NCBI GenBank assembly: GCA_007120695.1
Contig: SKND01000181.1
Coordinates: forward strand, 1-45,945
Source of the DNA: Bacteroidales bacterium
Lineage (GTDB): Bacteria > Bacteroidota > Bacteroidia > Bacteroidales > PUMT01
Length of the DNA: 45,945 bases
Direction: 5' to 3'
Shown here: piece by piece, positions 22,643 through 32,025 of the stretch
Position numbering within the stretch: the first letter of the stretch is position 1
Layout: each line of letters begins with the position of its first letter
Position numbers and translations under genes: made by a program
Notes under the pieces: generated by a model
What the model was told of the DNA's origin: nothing
The model's input: the letters and a program-made list of their open reading frames with translations, nothing else
Database searches by the model: none

Positions 22643-23995
22643 ATGGCAAAATTTGAGCTGGCATTACCCGCAATGGGTGAAGGCATTATAGAAGCAACAA
22701 TTACCAGATGGCTTGTAAAAGAGGGAGACAAAGTTACAGAGGACCAGCCACTGCTTGAGATTGCCACAGATAAGGTAGATTCAGAGATACCATCGCCGGT
22801 AAACGGAATCATATCAAAGATATTGATGGATGAAGGTGAAGTGCCTGCAGTAGGAAGTCTGCTTGCAGAGATCGAAACGGATGAGCAGGATGACAGACAG
22901 GAAAGCAAAGAGGTTTTGAATGAGGCTGAAAGGATAAAGGCACCATCCCGGCATAAATCACCGCCAGCAGAAACTTCAGGAATTCCCCGGCGCACACCCT
23001 CTGGAAAATTTTTAACTCCCCTGGTAAGGAGTATAGCACATAAAGAGAATTTATCAGTTGAGGAACTTGATAAAATCAACGGCAGTGGTGAGGCCGGGAG
23101 AATAACCAGGGAAGATATACTGGAGTACATGGAAAAAGGACCGGGGCATGAAAAGAAAGACGCAGATAAAAAAATTAAAGGATCTGTTTCAGAAGGTGCT
23201 CCGGAGCAGATGAAATCAGATCAGCCCACAGAAAAAAAGATGCCGGAGTATCACGTTCAGCAACACTCTTCCCCTGCACCTGGCGAAGGAGACAAACTGG
23301 TCGAGATGGACAGGATGAGGAGATTGATAGCCGGGCATATGATTGACTCAAAAAAAACCTCACCCCATGTAACTTCATTTATTGATGCAGATGTTACTCA
23401 AATTGTAAAGTGGAGAGAAAAAATCAGGGAGGAGTTCAGAAAACGTGAGAACGAAAAAATAACCTATACGCCGGTCTTTATAGAGGCAGCTTCAAAAGCC
23501 CTTCGTGACTACCCCATGGTAAATGTATCTCTTGACGGAACTACGATCATTGTAAAAAAGAACATAAACATCGGAATGGCTGTGGCCCTGGCTGATGGGA
23601 ATCTTATTGTTCCCGTTATAAAAAATGCAGACGAAAAGAGCCTGAGGGGACTGGTTAAGTCCTTAAATGATCTTGCAAACAGAGCAAGGATAAACAAGCT
23701 GTTACCCGATGAGATAAAAGGAGGCACCTTCACAATTACCAATTTCGGGACATTTGGAAATACAACCGGCACCCCTATTATCAACCAGCCTGAAGCTGCA
23801 ATTCTCGGAGCCGGAGCCATCATAAAAAAACCTGTGGTAATTGAAAGCGCTCAGGGAGATGTCATTGCCATCAGGCACATTATGACGCTATCACTTTCTT
23901 ACGACCACCGTATTATTGATGGTGCACTGGGTGGTATGTTCCTTAAAAGAATTGCAGAATATCTTGAATCATTTGATCCTGAACGAAAAATCTGA
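22643..23995 (+). CDS. Dihydrolipoamide acyltransferase (E2) of a 2-oxoacid dehydrogenase complex
   Basis: 450 residues with the full E2 layout. A lipoyl domain spans 1-78 with K44 in EIATDKVDSEIPSP. A charged linker leads to a peripheral-subunit-binding domain at about 123-163 (TPLVRSIAHKENLSVEELDKI, GRITREDILEYM). After a second linker the catalytic domain runs to the C-terminus, with active-site H422 and D426 in SYDHRIIDGALGG. It transfers the acyl group from lipoamide to CoA. E1 and E3 genes are not adjacent, so it is transcribed alone. The sequence resembles the branched-chain/acetoin-type E2s, but the oxoacid cannot be fixed. Confidence 0.95.
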   Translation: MAKFELALPAMGEGIIEATITRWLVKEGDKVTEDQPLLEIATDKVDSEIPSPVNGIISKILMDEGEVPAVGSLLAEIETDEQDDRQESKEVLNEAERIKAPSRHKSPPAETSGIPRRTPSGKFLTPLVRSIAHKENLSVEELDKINGSGEAGRITREDILEYMEKGPGHEKKDADKKIKGSVSEGAPEQMKSDQPTEKKMPEYHVQQHSSPAPGEGDKLVEMDRMRRLIAGHMIDSKKTSPHVTSFIDADVTQIVKWREKIREEFRKRENEKITYTPVFIEAASKALRDYPMVNVSLDGTTIIVKKNINIGMAVALADGNLIVPVIKNADEKSLRGLVKSLNDLANRARINKLLPDEIKGGTFTITNFGTFGNTTGTPIINQPEAAILGAGAIIKKPVVIESAQGDVIAIRHIMTLSLSYDHRIIDGALGGMFLKRIAEYLESFDPERKI

Positions 23996-24105: not shown

Positions 24106-26091
24106 ATGATAAGATTAATACTGTTTCTTCTAGCTGGAATTTTAACCAGCAGCAGGGCAGAAACACAAGTATATTCCCAGTTATACACCGGCAGGCAGGA
24201 GATGTTTCTTGAGGCGGAGTCATATCTCCTTTTTGAAGAATTCAATGAAGCATTACCACTGTATCTTGAACTGATCAGAGAGCAGCCCGACAATGCATTT
24301 CTTAACTACAGGACTGGAATAACATATCTGAATATTCCCGGAGAAAAGGAGCTGGCAATTGAGTATCTTGAGAAAGCTACAACTGACATGGACAGCCGGG
24401 ACAGACGGCCATCATACAGGACTACTAAAGCCCCGGTTGATGCATTGTTTTACCTGGGTAACGCTTACCACATCAATTACCAGTTTGATAAGGCTTTGGA
24501 GAAGTATGAGCGTTTTAAGGAGGTTCTTAACCCGTCAGTATATAATAAAGAAATAGTTCTGGAGCATATAAAGGCATCAAAAAACGCAATGGAGAGTATA
24601 CGCAATCCTGTTTTATTTATAGAAGAAAACCTTGGAGAACGCATTAATACCAGATTCTCTGAAACAAATCCAGTTGTATCGGGAAATAGAAAAGTATTAG
24701 TATTTTCAAGAAGTATGCAATTTTATGATGGTGTATTCTTGTCCCGGAATAATGATGAAGGCGAATGGTCATGGCCTGTTGATATTACTCAACAGTTAGG
24801 AAGTGACGGGGATTGTTACCCGGTATCAATTTCATATGACGGAACAGAACTTTACCTGTATAAATCCGACAACCTTGTAGGAAATATTTATGTCAGTCAT
24901 TTAGTTGATAATCAGTGGACCGGCATAAAAAAGCTTAACGAAAATATTAATACCGGTTACTGGGAATCCCATGCAAGCATATCGGGAGACGGAAACACTC
25001 TTTACTTTACAAGCAACCGTCCCGGCGGATTTGGCGGGCTGGATATATATTATTCCCAACGAGACAACAGAGGTGAATGGGGACCGGCTGTAAATCTGGG
25101 ACCGGTAATCAATACACCATTTAATGAAGAGACTCCGTTTGTGTCGGAGAATGGCAGCACATTGTTTTTCAGCTCATATGGTCATCATAATATAGGGGGT
25201 TATGACATTTTTTATTCAAAGCGGAGTGATGACGGTAATTGGTCTATACCTGAAAACATGGGATACGGGGTCAACACCCCTGATGACGATCTGTTTTTTC
25301 ACCCTCTTAAAGGTGGAATTTATGCATATGTTTCAAAGTTTGATGACGAAGGTTTTGGTGAAGCGGATATATTCAGGTATGAATTCTTTTCTGATTTAAA
25401 TCCGCGAAAATTTCTTTTAAAGGGCTTGATGCAAAGAAATGATGGCTTACAGACAGGCATAAGAGCCAGCATAACGGTTATAGATCCCTCAACCGGCGAC
25501 ACAATAAAAACTGCAAGACCAAACCAGATAACTGGAGAATATGAGGTTGAGTTAGAACATGGAGAATGGGAGATTGTTTTTATGGAAGAAGGTCAGCAGA
25601 AGACAACCAGGTTATTGAATCTGCCTCCTGACAGAAAGGACCAGGAGATTATAATGGATACCAGGCTTGAAAGAAAGGAGCCGGAGATACCGGGTATAAA
25701 TGATGTTATCACTGACAGGATAATCCTTCCTGCAGAGCCCATGACAGACCACTCCCCCGAAATCAGACCTTTGACAGCAGACGATACAATCAGTCAGGTA
25801 TACCCGGACAGTACCCCGGAAATCCTTACCCGGGAGAAGGAAATTAGTCGTACTCCTTTTCAGGAAGATACGGATGATGATACTGACGGAGAGGAAATTA
25901 GTCGTACTCCTTTTCAGGAAGATACGGATGATGATACTGACGGAGAGGAAATAAGTCCTCAAGAGGAGGTGGATGTCACTCCCGGAGGCAAGGCAGTACC
26001 GATGTGGTGGATCCTTATAGTCATAGTGCTTATTTTGTCAGCTTATTACTTAATTAAACGAAATGCAGGGAAGCAAAGCAGGTCACAATAA
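24106..26091 (+). CDS. Exported TPR + PD40 propeller protein with C-terminal membrane anchor
   Basis: 661 residues. A signal peptide (residues 1-19, LFLLAGILTSSRAETQ) precedes TPR helices (about 30-145, including FEEFNEALPLYLELI and DALFYLGNAYHINYQFDKALEKY). PD40/WD40-like blades run from about 190 to 425 (SYDGTELYLY, SGDGNTLYFTSNRPGGFGGLDIYYS, FFSSYGHHNIGGYDIFYS), then a carboxypeptidase-regulatory-like fold (about 435-525). An acidic linker with a duplicated 18-residue unit leads to a hydrophobic helix at 633-650, followed by a basic tail. The expected topology is an inner membrane anchor with a large periplasmic part. It is a paralogue of the next gene, 11 bp downstream, but lacks its OmpA domain. 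Function unknown; the order resembles PorE of the T9SS up to the linker. Confidence 0.88.
   Translation: MIRLILFLLAGILTSSRAETQVYSQLYTGRQEMFLEAESYLLFEEFNEALPLYLELIREQPDNAFLNYRTGITYLNIPGEKELAIEYLEKATTDMDSRDRRPSYRTTKAPVDALFYLGNAYHINYQFDKALEKYERFKEVLNPSVYNKEIVLEHIKASKNAMESIRNPVLFIEENLGERINTRFSETNPVVSGNRKVLVFSRSMQFYDGVFLSRNNDEGEWSWPVDITQQLGSDGDCYPVSISYDGTELYLYKSDNLVGNIYVSHLVDNQWTGIKKLNENINTGYWESHASISGDGNTLYFTSNRPGGFGGLDIYYSQRDNRGEWGPAVNLGPVINTPFNEETPFVSENGSTLFFSSYGHHNIGGYDIFYSKRSDDGNWSIPENMGYGVNTPDDDLFFHPLKGGIYAYVSKFDDEGFGEADIFRYEFFSDLNPRKFLLKGLMQRNDGLQTGIRASITVIDPSTGDTIKTARPNQITGEYEVELEHGEWEIVFMEEGQQKTTRLLNLPPDRKDQEIIMDTRLERKEPEIPGINDVITDRIILPAEPMTDHSPEIRPLTADDTISQVYPDSTPEILTREKEISRTPFQEDTDDDTDGEEISRTPFQEDTDDDTDGEEISPQEEVDVTPGGKAVPMWWILIVIVLILSAYYLIKRNAGKQSRSQ
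25839..25946 (+). repeat. Exact 54-bp direct repeat inside the linker of the TPR/PD40 gene
   Basis: Two identical 54-base copies (25839-25892 and 25893-25946) plus the start of a third (GGAAATAAGTCC) encode an 18-residue unit, EISRTPFQEDTDDDTDGE. The period is a multiple of three, so the frame is kept. The lack of any difference between copies points to a recent slippage duplication or an unstable length-variable linker. Confidence 0.95.
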
Positions 26092-26102
26092 AAAATCAGT
26101 TT

Positions 26103-28127
26103 ATGCGGCTCATTATTACATCCATCTTAATTACCCTCCTGCTGGCCTCAAAAGCAGGTTCCCAGTTCAGACTCAGTCCATCTGAAACCTTTGCAGAGGC
26201 ATTTGACTTTTTCAGCTATGAGGAATATGATGAAGCCCTTCCATTGTTTCTTTCCCTCTTAAGACGCGATGAGTCCAATAGCCATCTGCAGTACCTGACC
26301 GGTATATGTTACCTGAACAGTGAAGGTCAAAAACAGAGGGCTCTTAAATATCTTGAAAGAGCCGCCGGGAGCATTTCACTTGAACACAGAACAGGAGTAT
26401 TTGAGGACATAACGGTGCCGGTTGATTGCTTTTATTATCTGGGACTGGCTTACAGGATGGCATACCGTTTTGATGAATCTCTGGAAAGTTTTAAAATGCT
26501 CAAGGGTAAAGTTGGTGATCGTTATGACCTTGATCCGGTTGAGCATGAGATAACGATAACAAAGAATGCGGCACACTTTTTTCGTAACAGACACAATATA
26601 AAGATCATTGATGATATAGAACTGCCGGCAACTGATGCACTCCACAAAAACGTCATTATCAGCGGAGATGAATCTACTGTTGTGTATTCAGAACAACAGA
26701 AGTTCTATGATGCAGTATTTTTCACCAGGGATATTGGTGACGGTTGGACAAGGCCTGCAAATATCACAATGCAACTGGGATCCGATGGTATGGCCTATCC
26801 GGTATCACTGTCATATGATGGACATGAGCTATACCTGTATCAGTATGATGGTTTCTCAAACACCAATTTATATGTCAGTCGCTTTACCGAAAACAGTTGG
26901 TCGGCAATGGAAAAACTTAGCAATAATATTAATTCGTCAAGTTTCGAGCAATATGCTTCCATAACCAAAGACGGACAGGTACTCTATTTTTCCAGCGACC
27001 GTGTTTCAGGGAGGGGCGGCTTTGATATTTACCGGTCTGTCAAGGATGATAATATGGGATGGGGACAGGCACAGAACCTGGGGTATCCGGTTAATACCGT
27101 GTCTGATGAGTCTTATCCCTATATCAGCCCGGACGGCAACATACTGTTTTTCAGCTCAAAAGGACATACCGGTATCGGAGGTTATGACATATTCATATCC
27201 GTCAAATCAGAATCCGGTGAGTGGTCGCCTCCCCGTAACCTGGGTTTTCCTGTAAACACCCCTGATGATGATGCTATTTTTATACCGGTAAACAATGGAA
27301 AGAGTGCATATTTCAGCATGAGAACGGAAGAAAATAACGACATCAGGGAGTTCAGAAAAATAGAATCATTTGATGTTGACATGTCATCTTCTGCAATTGC
27401 CGGCATTAGCGTAAAACCAGAACCTTCAATTCCCGGTCATGTTCCCTCTTTTGAAATAAGCCTCCACCAGATATCTCCTCAGGAAAATATCATTGCGTCA
27501 TCTTCAATTGAGGAGGATCAATACAAGGAATACAACCTGTCATGGGGTAACTATCTGATTGAATTTAAACATGAGGATTATACTAAAAAGACCATTCCTT
27601 TCACAATACCGGAATATTATCCGGAGGACAAGTATGATATTACGGCAGTGCTTTTTGCCAAAGATCCGGACAAAATTTCAACTGAACCAGTTCAGGAAAT
27701 CCCTGACACCCTCATTATAGATAAAGAACCCATCCTGTTTGGATTTGACAGCAAGGAGCTTGATGAGAAATACATACCCATGGTTACCAGAGCAGCTGAA
27801 CTGTTAAATGACTTTGATGAGGCGGGGATTGAACTTAAAGGTTATACCGACGCTCTTGGTCCTGCCGCCTATAATGAATATCTTGCAGGACTCAGGTCTG
27901 AAACCGTTGCTGAAGCATTGGAACAGAGGGGGGTTGATATGGATCGGATTACTATTGCAGCAGTTGGTATGGAAAATTACGTTGCCAGAAATACTACACC
28001 AGATGGAAGAGACAACCCCGAAGGCAGAAGATACAACCGAAGAGTTGAACTGTTGTTTACGGGTTTACCGGGACATATAATAATCAGAGACATATTGATA
28101 ATTCCGGAACATCTTAAAATTGACTAA
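26103..28127 (+). CDS. Exported TPR + PD40 + OmpA protein (PorE-like architecture)
   Basis: 674 residues. After a signal peptide (about 1-21; no lipobox Cys) come TPR helices (about 30-135, YEEYDEALPLFLSLL, FYYLGLAYRMAYRFDESLESF). PD40 blades follow (about 180-430, SYDGHELYLY, FSSDRVSGRGGFDIYRS, FFSSKGHTGIGGYDIFIS), then a short regulatory-like beta region, then an OmpA C-terminal domain (about 540-660). The peptidoglycan-binding pair D583 and R598 has the same 15-residue spacing as E. coli OmpA. This is the domain order of PorE, the T9SS outer membrane-peptidoglycan linker, but PorE is a lipoprotein and many Bacteroidota envelope proteins share the layout. It is a tandem paralogue of the upstream gene. 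Confidence 0.9.
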   Translation: MRLIITSILITLLLASKAGSQFRLSPSETFAEAFDFFSYEEYDEALPLFLSLLRRDESNSHLQYLTGICYLNSEGQKQRALKYLERAAGSISLEHRTGVFEDITVPVDCFYYLGLAYRMAYRFDESLESFKMLKGKVGDRYDLDPVEHEITITKNAAHFFRNRHNIKIIDDIELPATDALHKNVIISGDESTVVYSEQQKFYDAVFFTRDIGDGWTRPANITMQLGSDGMAYPVSLSYDGHELYLYQYDGFSNTNLYVSRFTENSWSAMEKLSNNINSSSFEQYASITKDGQVLYFSSDRVSGRGGFDIYRSVKDDNMGWGQAQNLGYPVNTVSDESYPYISPDGNILFFSSKGHTGIGGYDIFISVKSESGEWSPPRNLGFPVNTPDDDAIFIPVNNGKSAYFSMRTEENNDIREFRKIESFDVDMSSSAIAGISVKPEPSIPGHVPSFEISLHQISPQENIIASSSIEEDQYKEYNLSWGNYLIEFKHEDYTKKTIPFTIPEYYPEDKYDITAVLFAKDPDKISTEPVQEIPDTLIIDKEPILFGFDSKELDEKYIPMVTRAAELLNDFDEAGIELKGYTDALGPAAYNEYLAGLRSETVAEALEQRGVDMDRITIAAVGMENYVARNTTPDGRDNPEGRRYNRRVELLFTGLPGHIIIRDILIIPEHLKID

Positions 28128-28129
28128 AT

Positions 28130-28675
28130 TTGAGCATTCTTAAAGGAAATAATATTAACCTCAGGGCATTGGAACCTTCCGATGTTGACCTTCTTTACGG
28201 ATGGGAGAACAATTCAAACATCTGGTCAGTAAGCAATACCCTGGTACCTTTCTCCAGATTCGTACTTGAGAAATATATTGCTGATTCTCATCTTGATATT
28301 TTTCAGGCCAGGCAGTTAAGGCTGATGATAGACCTGGTCGGTGCAGGCCACAATGAAACAATTGGAGCAATAGATCTATATGATTTTGATCCGATGAACA
28401 AACGGGCGGGAATTGGCATACTGATAAGTGACGAAAAATACCGAAACAAGGGTTATGCCACTGAAGCACTGGGACTACTGATCAATTATTCATTTGACAT
28501 ATTGCAACTGCACCAGATATTTTGTTATATTGATTGCGACAATAAAATAAGCATCAACCTGTTTGAAAAATTCCGGTTCAAAATAACAGGAGAAAAGAAG
28601 GACTGGAATATCACGCCGGAAGGCTGGAAAAGTGAATTTATGCTTCAGCTTATTAACCCCCGTTCCCGCAGTTGA
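28130..28675 (+). CDS. GNAT family N-acetyltransferase (RimJ/RimL-like)
   Basis: 181 residues. The fold is recognised by NINLRALEPSDVDLLYGWENNSNIW at the N-terminus and, in the centre, IGILISDEKYRNKGYATEALGLLINYSF, where RNKGYA is the acetyl-CoA pyrophosphate-binding motif A. FCYIDCDNKISINLFEKFRF follows. It should transfer acetyl from acetyl-CoA to an amine, perhaps a protein N-terminus or small molecule. The start is TTG at 28130, 2 bases after the previous stop; the next Met would lose the first strand. It is the third gene of the PD40 operon and its end overlaps the convergent nuclease-fold gene by 23 bases. Confidence 0.9.
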   Translation: MSILKGNNINLRALEPSDVDLLYGWENNSNIWSVSNTLVPFSRFVLEKYIADSHLDIFQARQLRLMIDLVGAGHNETIGAIDLYDFDPMNKRAGIGILISDEKYRNKGYATEALGLLINYSFDILQLHQIFCYIDCDNKISINLFEKFRFKITGEKKDWNITPEGWKSEFMLQLINPRSRS

Positions 28676-29123
28676 TAACATCAAAACCAGGAACTTCACT
28701 CAGGAACTGCCAACTGCCGCCTTTGTGATCAAGCCTGGCACAGTAGTGATCCATCCCATTGCTGACGATCAGATACTCAACCTTGAGATCAATATTATAA
28801 CGTGCGGCCTGGTCAAAAACTTTCTGAGAGATTTTAATTGATGGTGCTTTGCATTCAACAATCACAGCAGGAGTACCCTGTTTTGAAAACAGTATTATAT
28901 CAGCACGCCTTTCCATCCGGTTAACCCTGAGCGGCATTTCAACAGCAATAAGGGAAAGCGGATACCCCTTTTCTTTAACCAGCCATGTTACAAGATTCTG
29001 CCTGACCCACTCCTCCGGTGTCAAAACAACATAACGCTTTCGTATATTATCAAAAATATACTTTCTTTGTCGTTCGGTTTTTATCCTGAAAGAATATTGT
29101 GGTAAATTTAATGACTGTACCAT
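28653..29123 (-). CDS. HsdR N-terminal-like (PD-(D/E)XK) domain protein
   Basis: 156 residues. The core matches the type I restriction enzyme R subunit N-terminal nuclease-fold domain: ADIILFSKQGTPAVIVECKAP gives the D...ExK catalytic pattern, followed by QAARYNIDLKVEYLIVSNGMDHYCARLD. No helicase, HsdM or HsdS gene is near, so this is not an active restriction system. Stand-alone proteins of this type occur next to holA and amn in other Bacteroidota and are of unknown role, perhaps DNA repair. It is divergent from the AMP nucleosidase gene with a 33-base gap. Confidence 0.85.
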   Translation of the reverse strand: MVQSLNLPQYSFRIKTERQRKYIFDNIRKRYVVLTPEEWVRQNLVTWLVKEKGYPLSLIAVEMPLRVNRMERRADIILFSKQGTPAVIVECKAPSIKISQKVFDQAARYNIDLKVEYLIVSNGMDHYCARLDHKGGSWQFLSEVPGFDVINCGNGG

Positions 29124-31407: not shown

Positions 31408-32025
31408 ATGACGATTTTTATTGTAGCGCTAACTTCTTTAATATCTATCATGGCCTTCTCAAGGCCCGAACTGATGATGAAACTCCAGTTCAACCCATAC
31501 CAGGTTCACCATCGCAGGCAGTATTACAGGCTTCTCACTCATGCTTTATTGCACGCCGACTGGGTGCATCTGTTTATTAACATGCTGGTGCTATTATCTT
31601 TCGGAACAGCAGTGGAAAGGTATTTCGGTCGACTGGAAACTATGGGAATGCTGAGGTTTCCGGGACTTGTTTACCTGCTTCTTTATATCGGTGCCGTTGT
31701 AGCATCATCACTTACCACCCTGAAAAAGCACAAGGATAACCATTGGTATAATTCAGTGGGAGCTTCAGGCGGAGTCTCGGCAGTAATATTTACCAGCATC
31801 TTTTTTGCACCCTGGCAAAATCTTTTGCTTTATGCCATAATCCCAATACCCGGCATTGTCTTCGGCGGACTATATCTGGCATACTCACATTATATGAGCA
31901 AAAAAGCCTCTGACAATATAAACCATGATGCCCACTTCATTGGTGCAGTCTTCGGACTGCTATTCCCGTTGCTGATTAACATCAGTCTGATAGGAACCTT
32001 TTTTGAGCAGCTATTCCGCATCTAA
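31408..32025 (+). CDS. Rhomboid family intramembrane serine protease
   Basis: 205 residues with about six membrane helices. The catalytic Ser is in VGASGGVSAVIF (GxSG, about residue 115) on helix 4 and the catalytic His in HDAHFIGAVFGLLFP on helix 6. The L1-loop HADWVHLFINMLVL with HxxxN is also present, so the enzyme looks active. It lies in the inner membrane and cleaves membrane-spanning helices of substrates not identifiable here. It leads a run with the HAD phosphatase and class IV aminotransferase genes, spaced 58 and 30 bases apart. Confidence 0.95.
   Translation: MTIFIVALTSLISIMAFSRPELMMKLQFNPYQVHHRRQYYRLLTHALLHADWVHLFINMLVLLSFGTAVERYFGRLETMGMLRFPGLVYLLLYIGAVVASSLTTLKKHKDNHWYNSVGASGGVSAVIFTSIFFAPWQNLLLYAIIPIPGIVFGGLYLAYSHYMSKKASDNINHDAHFIGAVFGLLFPLLINISLIGTFFEQLFRI

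Follow-up and report, generated by a model that had tools for sequence, protein, structure and literature searches.

PorE (PG1058), which belongs to the type IX secretion system, is a lipoprotein of the outer membrane (PMC7192894), and in a 2025 paper it was read as a CpoB-TolB-Pal fusion that ties the outer membrane to the wall (PMC12204202). The survey in the same paper recognised no tol-pal loci in Bacteroidetes, proposed PorE as a fused outer-membrane-wall substitute, and expected that further such systems are still to be found (PMC12204202). Another described protein, CHU_0125 of Cytophaga hutchinsonii, is a TPR-PD40-OmpA protein of outer-membrane integrity (PMC5891637). The stretch of DNA analysed here, referred to as the window, comprises positions 1 to 45,945 of a contig from a Bacteroidales bacterium (SKND01000181.1). 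It carries two adjacent genes, named gene 1 and gene 2, which belong among the PorE/TolB-Pal-like scaffolds. Their relatives form an ordered array with one inner-membrane PorE-like head and usually a wall-binding one, found in 13 families, and this array could form the inner side of such a system. In the open-access PubMed Central literature searched, no description of an inner-membrane-anchored TPR-PD40 protein was found.

Two related genes with different ends

The features of the locus are as follows (CRD, carboxypeptidase-regulatory-like domain).

22643..23995, plus strand: 2-oxoacid dehydrogenase E2 acyltransferase; syntenic, bordering the array on the left
24106..26091, plus strand: gene 1, 661 aa; TPR, PD40 propeller, CRD-like beta domain, acidic linker, predicted C-terminal membrane helix
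24193..24600, plus strand: gene 1 TPR helices, aa 30-165 (Pfam and AlphaFold model)
24616..25386, plus strand: gene 1 five-bladed PD40 propeller, aa 171-427 (Pfam and AlphaFold model; closest solved folds TolB and TolB-Pal)
25408..25668, plus strand: gene 1 carboxypeptidase-regulatory-like beta domain, aa 435-521 (model; weak CarboxypepD_reg matches in relatives)
25690..25998, plus strand: gene 1 acidic linker, disordered, aa 529-631 (pLDDT below 50; composition)
25833..25957, plus strand: 54-bp tandem repeat within the gene 1 linker, 2.3 copies, 97% match
26002..26061, plus strand: predicted gene 1 C-terminal membrane helix, aa 633-652 (model; hydrophobicity and conservation in 40 anchored proteins)
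26062..26088, plus strand: basic tail of gene 1, interpreted as cytoplasmic (39 of 40 proteins have a net positive tail)
26103..28127, plus strand: gene 2, 674 aa; TPR, PD40 propeller, CRD-like domain, OmpA, without lipobox
27735..28052, plus strand: gene 2 OmpA peptidoglycan-binding domain, aa 545-650
27849..27896, plus strand: gene 2 D583, N591 and R598, equivalents of PorE Asp576, Asn584 and Arg591
28130..28675, plus strand: GNAT acetyltransferase; syntenic, bordering the array on the right

The initial annotation described two adjacent, clearly related genes with different ends, and this description holds. The genes are separated by 11 bp (26092-26102), and their products share 37% identity over 555 aa (BLASTP, 322 bits, E 3e-105), a match that includes the motifs quoted earlier as common to both (SYDG-ELYLY, FFSS--GH--IGGYDIF and VNTPDDD). 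TPR and PD40 matches are present in both products (Pfam), and the common head consists of a signal peptide, TPR, a five-bladed PD40 propeller and a regulatory fold. The difference lies behind the head: OmpA was detected by Pfam in gene 2 only, and the acidic linker, helix and basic tail of gene 1 are indicated by the model and by composition.

In the AlphaFold model of gene 1, an N-terminal helix is followed by the TPR helices at 30-165, by a propeller of five three-stranded blades (186-427) and by the beta domain (435-521), and these TPR helices, blades and beta domain make up the confidently predicted head. Disorder extends over 529-631, where 30 D/E stand against 7 K/R, and a terminal helix covers 633-660; the tail has a net charge of +4. 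The solved structures nearest to gene 1 are those of TolB, including TolB-Pal complexes (Foldseek). When a longer gene 1 congener was compared with a second-look aligner, five-bladed sugar hydrolases ranked first (Z about 18, TolB 16.7); such a match reflects a common fold and says nothing on function, and the propeller was not taken for an enzyme. Gene 1 thus reads as a type I membrane protein with a signal peptide, a periplasmic head, a flexible linker, a membrane helix and a short basic cytoplasmic tail, a topology predicted from the sequence.

The spacer between head and anchor is variable in length among gene 1 relatives, and the head and the anchor are constant: the linker of gene 1 has about 100 residues, and relatives in other families reach about 1490 aa in total. 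The 54-bp repeat (25833-25957) duplicates part of the acidic linker and is absent from the aligned congeners, several of which carry a longer, partly folded spacer in place of the repeat-bearing linker. In one of them (L011:6001-8349), structure prediction shows two additional domains behind the regulatory fold and ahead of the membrane helix, one beta-sandwich-like (556-634) and one helical (644-730); they have no Pfam name and are missing from the gene 1 of the window.

TolA meets its motor through a conserved polar residue in its helix. No conserved polar residue of this kind is seen in the gene 1 membrane helix when the anchored proteins are compared, so there is no sign of proton-driven motor coupling and the helix is taken as passive. 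Neither was a motif common to the 40 anchored proteins found just before the C-terminal helix, a single glycine being invariant within the genus, and on this ground gene 1 was rejected as a substrate of PEP-CTERM, GlyGly-CTERM or LPXTG sorting.

The domains of gene 2 were assigned from sequence, by Pfam and by homology with gene 1 that includes the beta domain. The OmpA match (5.6e-15, aa 545-637), in which a D/R binding pair had been pointed out earlier, contains D583, N591 and R598, with spacing identical to that in PorE (8 and 15; PMC7192894). The first 40 residues of both products are free of cysteine, hence there is no lipobox, and lipobox-like sequences are scarce in the family set (3 of 156). 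The proposal that the two proteins are inner-membrane and cell-wall or outer-membrane partners is therefore retained as an inner-membrane/cell-wall pair; its outer-membrane part, together with gene 2 as an outer-membrane protein, was dropped for want of a lipobox. From its sequence, the gene 2 product is expected to be soluble in the periplasm and to bind the wall, unlike an outer-membrane lipoprotein of the PorE type.

A conserved array at one chromosomal site

Genes 1 and 2 are flanked by a block of housekeeping-type genes that is syntenic across Bacteroidales, and they are a reduced form of an array kept at this site across many families of the order. Depending on the genome, one to five head proteins are encoded there, built from TPR and a five-bladed propeller and in most cases a regulatory fold. 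They end in a membrane helix, OmpA, SPOR, OmpA plus SPOR, or nothing, and the wall-binding tails are interchanged at this position, being OmpA in some cases, SPOR in others, or the two together. SPOR was assigned with a home-made profile, with which Pfam agrees for the majority of the members examined, at E values of 5e-9 to 0.11. Membrane-anchored members were found in 39 genomes of 13 families, exactly one per array and never two. C-terminal hydrophobicity is bimodal in 157 family members: 38 lie at 1.9 or above, and the range from 1.5 to 1.9 is empty. Of 40 anchored proteins, 39 carry a net positive charge behind the helix, as expected of a cytoplasmic tail.

The adjacency noticed in the window goes beyond chance, as the anchored member precedes the first wall-binding one in all 22 complete arrays that have both. 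Outside the genus, 20 of 22 complete arrays with an anchored member also include one with OmpA and/or SPOR, often with a soluble member too; the loci were selected for their likeness to gene 1, a choice in favour of arrays that contain an anchored member, and these fractions describe arrays with a close gene 1 relative rather than the whole order. The head family itself is large in the order, with up to 26 matches per genome.

Some further genes at the site can be mentioned. A stand-alone 156-aa HSDR_N_2 protein (type I restriction R-subunit N terminus) is encoded at 28653-29123 on the minus strand; its gene overlaps the GNAT gene tail to tail and neighbours GNAT at the same site in many families. 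A rhomboid protease gene (31408-32025) belongs to the conserved block, and this protease might conceivably act on the membrane-anchored head protein. In one family-mate (L112, genome G015), the site has no anchored gene, and two unrelated genes (1106 and 487 aa) lie upstream of an OmpA-type member.

Gene 2 within the genus and the history of the family

The gene directly after gene 1 was in view in nine relatives of the same genus. It is gene 2 in three of them (G007, G008 and G011), and GNAT follows gene 1 directly in six (G003, G004, G006, G009, G010 and G012), where no close gene 2 relative was seen elsewhere in the genome. The initial annotation had proposed a matched pair and had named a wide occurrence of gene 1 without gene 2 as evidence to the contrary; this arrangement was found among the congeners, and an obligate pair does not stand. 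Since gene 1 stands alone in these six relatives, it has some function in the absence of gene 2. The congener genomes sampled nevertheless contain a wall-binding sister of one kind or another. The observation made in the window is thus real and ordered, and the wider locus strengthens the system and weakens the obligate two-protein pair.

At another locus, a SPOR-type third paralogue was noted in the genome of the window (L003, contig C18) and in the family members sampled (L191-L197), so that membrane, OmpA and SPOR versions of one head are present within a single genome; the C18 gene itself helped to build the SPOR profile and has no Pfam SPOR support. The Pfam SPOR match is weak in L191 and clear in L193. 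An OmpA-type paralogue is present in G012 (L198).

The membrane-anchored type is old, as relatives occupy the same site in 13 families. On a 92-row tree, only two changes of the anchored label are needed, and 20 of the 25 anchored rows fall into one well-supported group; the quick search on these 92 rows overlooked a tree that keeps genes 1 and 2 together and is better by 12.6 log units. A single origin of the anchored type is compatible with the tree tests, 14 soluble members form a strong cross-family group, and gene 2 clusters tightly with its three congeners at the end of a long stem. A phylogeny of the propellers had been suggested as a way to date the duplication; the trees made here give no date and allow two histories. 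A within-genus duplication from gene 1 was not rejected by AU tests on three trees (p-AU 0.27, 0.71 and 0.26), nor was orthology of gene 2 with the wall-binding members of other families (p-AU 0.087 and 0.22). Simple orthology with the short wall-binding OmpA members of several other families is opposed by the long stem of gene 2 and by its regulatory fold, which is absent from those members. An origin of the pair by "duplication and end swap" is therefore possible, without a date.

Proposed mechanism and alternative explanations

The arrangement described above suggests that the array makes PorE/TolB-like heads targeted to different envelope layers, which would serve as a passive tether or scaffold between the inner membrane and the wall; we give this reading a probability of about one half. 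Genes 1 and 2 would be the remaining members of a conserved Bacteroidales PorE-like array, differing mainly in how they are tethered. Gene 1 would be exported by its signal peptide, and its C-terminal helix would hold it in the inner membrane with the tail in the cytoplasm, allowing the head to reach into the periplasm on the flexible linker. The exported, soluble gene 2 product would grip peptidoglycan with its OmpA domain. If the heads are protein-binding platforms, as in PorE, CpoB and TolB, equivalent platforms would be placed at the inner membrane and at the wall. Binding of the heads to each other, or to a shared client, would then tie the inner membrane to the wall or position an envelope machine. 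Against the tether, gene 1 lacks gene 2 in six of nine congeners, and with a head family so large the adjacency could reflect tandem duplication alone.

These observations also suit ordinary paralogue expansion, a possible though not favoured explanation, in which the genes encode independent PorE-like scaffolds with their own clients, adjacent by tandem duplication and without a joint function. The persistence of gene 1 without gene 2 in the six congeners, the heavy expansion of the head family across the order, and the interchange of OmpA, SPOR or both as wall-binding tails at the same site would all be expected. However, one anchored member at most per array and a fixed order are more orderly than random, and the anchored and soluble lineages stay together across many families.

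Returning to the tether or scaffold, one elaborate form of it appears rather doubtful. In this form the array would be a compact trans-envelope tether in which an inner-membrane CpoB/TolB-like head pairs with two sisters, one soluble and one Pal-like and attached to the wall by OmpA or SPOR, as the inner-membrane-to-wall counterpart of the outer-membrane-to-wall tether proposed for PorE.

It is improbable that both proteins are type IX secretion accessories, that is, PorE paralogues anchoring or positioning the secretion machine. The domain order of gene 2 is that of PorE (PMC7192894), and 15 type IX sorting-tail matches in the genome exceed the family cut-off. On the other hand, the genome has a separate PorE gene, there is no lipobox in genes 1 and 2, and no secretion genes were identified among the neighbours, which are of housekeeping type. 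It is very improbable that the gene 1 C-terminal helix serves in sorting or processing and is cleaved off, for example by the syntenic rhomboid protease, rather than being a lasting anchor: a rhomboid gene lies near the site in many genomes and a helix with a basic tail also suits sorting signals, but the 40 anchored proteins share no pre-helix motif, only one glycine being constant in the genus, and the rhomboid gene also adjoins an array without an anchored member (L128).

Comparison with known systems

PorE is among the closest described proteins. Gene 2 has the same order of TPR, propeller, regulatory fold and OmpA and the same three peptidoglycan-contact residues (PMC7192894); it differs in having no lipobox, and gene 1 differs in having a membrane helix instead of OmpA. 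With the PorE model NF052230, genes 1 and 2 score 129.3 and 153.1 bits and do not reach the curated cut-off of 600, and the genome's own PorE is a separate gene (C384) at 702 bits. Genes 1 and 2 were for these reasons rejected as PorE or type IX components. With its own PorE and the sorting-tail matches, the genome probably has a working type IX system.

Among NCBIfam models, that of the CHU_0125 family (NF053607) fits both genes best, with 142.8 bits for gene 1 and 157.4 for gene 2, below the cut-off of 620. The domains of this family are those of gene 2 (PMC5891637), but another gene of the genome (C339) fits the model better, at 350 bits.

In the Tol-Pal system, the likeness lies in the fold, TolB being the nearest solved structure to gene 1. 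The TolB model gives 10 bits against a cut-off of 343, and gene 1 has TPR helices and five blades, whereas TolB has six blades and a Rossmann domain. For gene 2, Pal_lipo gives 44 bits against a cut-off of 125; Pal is a short lipidated OmpA protein, in contrast to the 674 aa of gene 2 without lipobox. Genes 1 and 2 include neither a lipidated Pal nor a TolA-like N-terminal helix, and gene 1 differs from the Tol-Pal arrangement in that it would place a TolB/CpoB-like head on the inner membrane.
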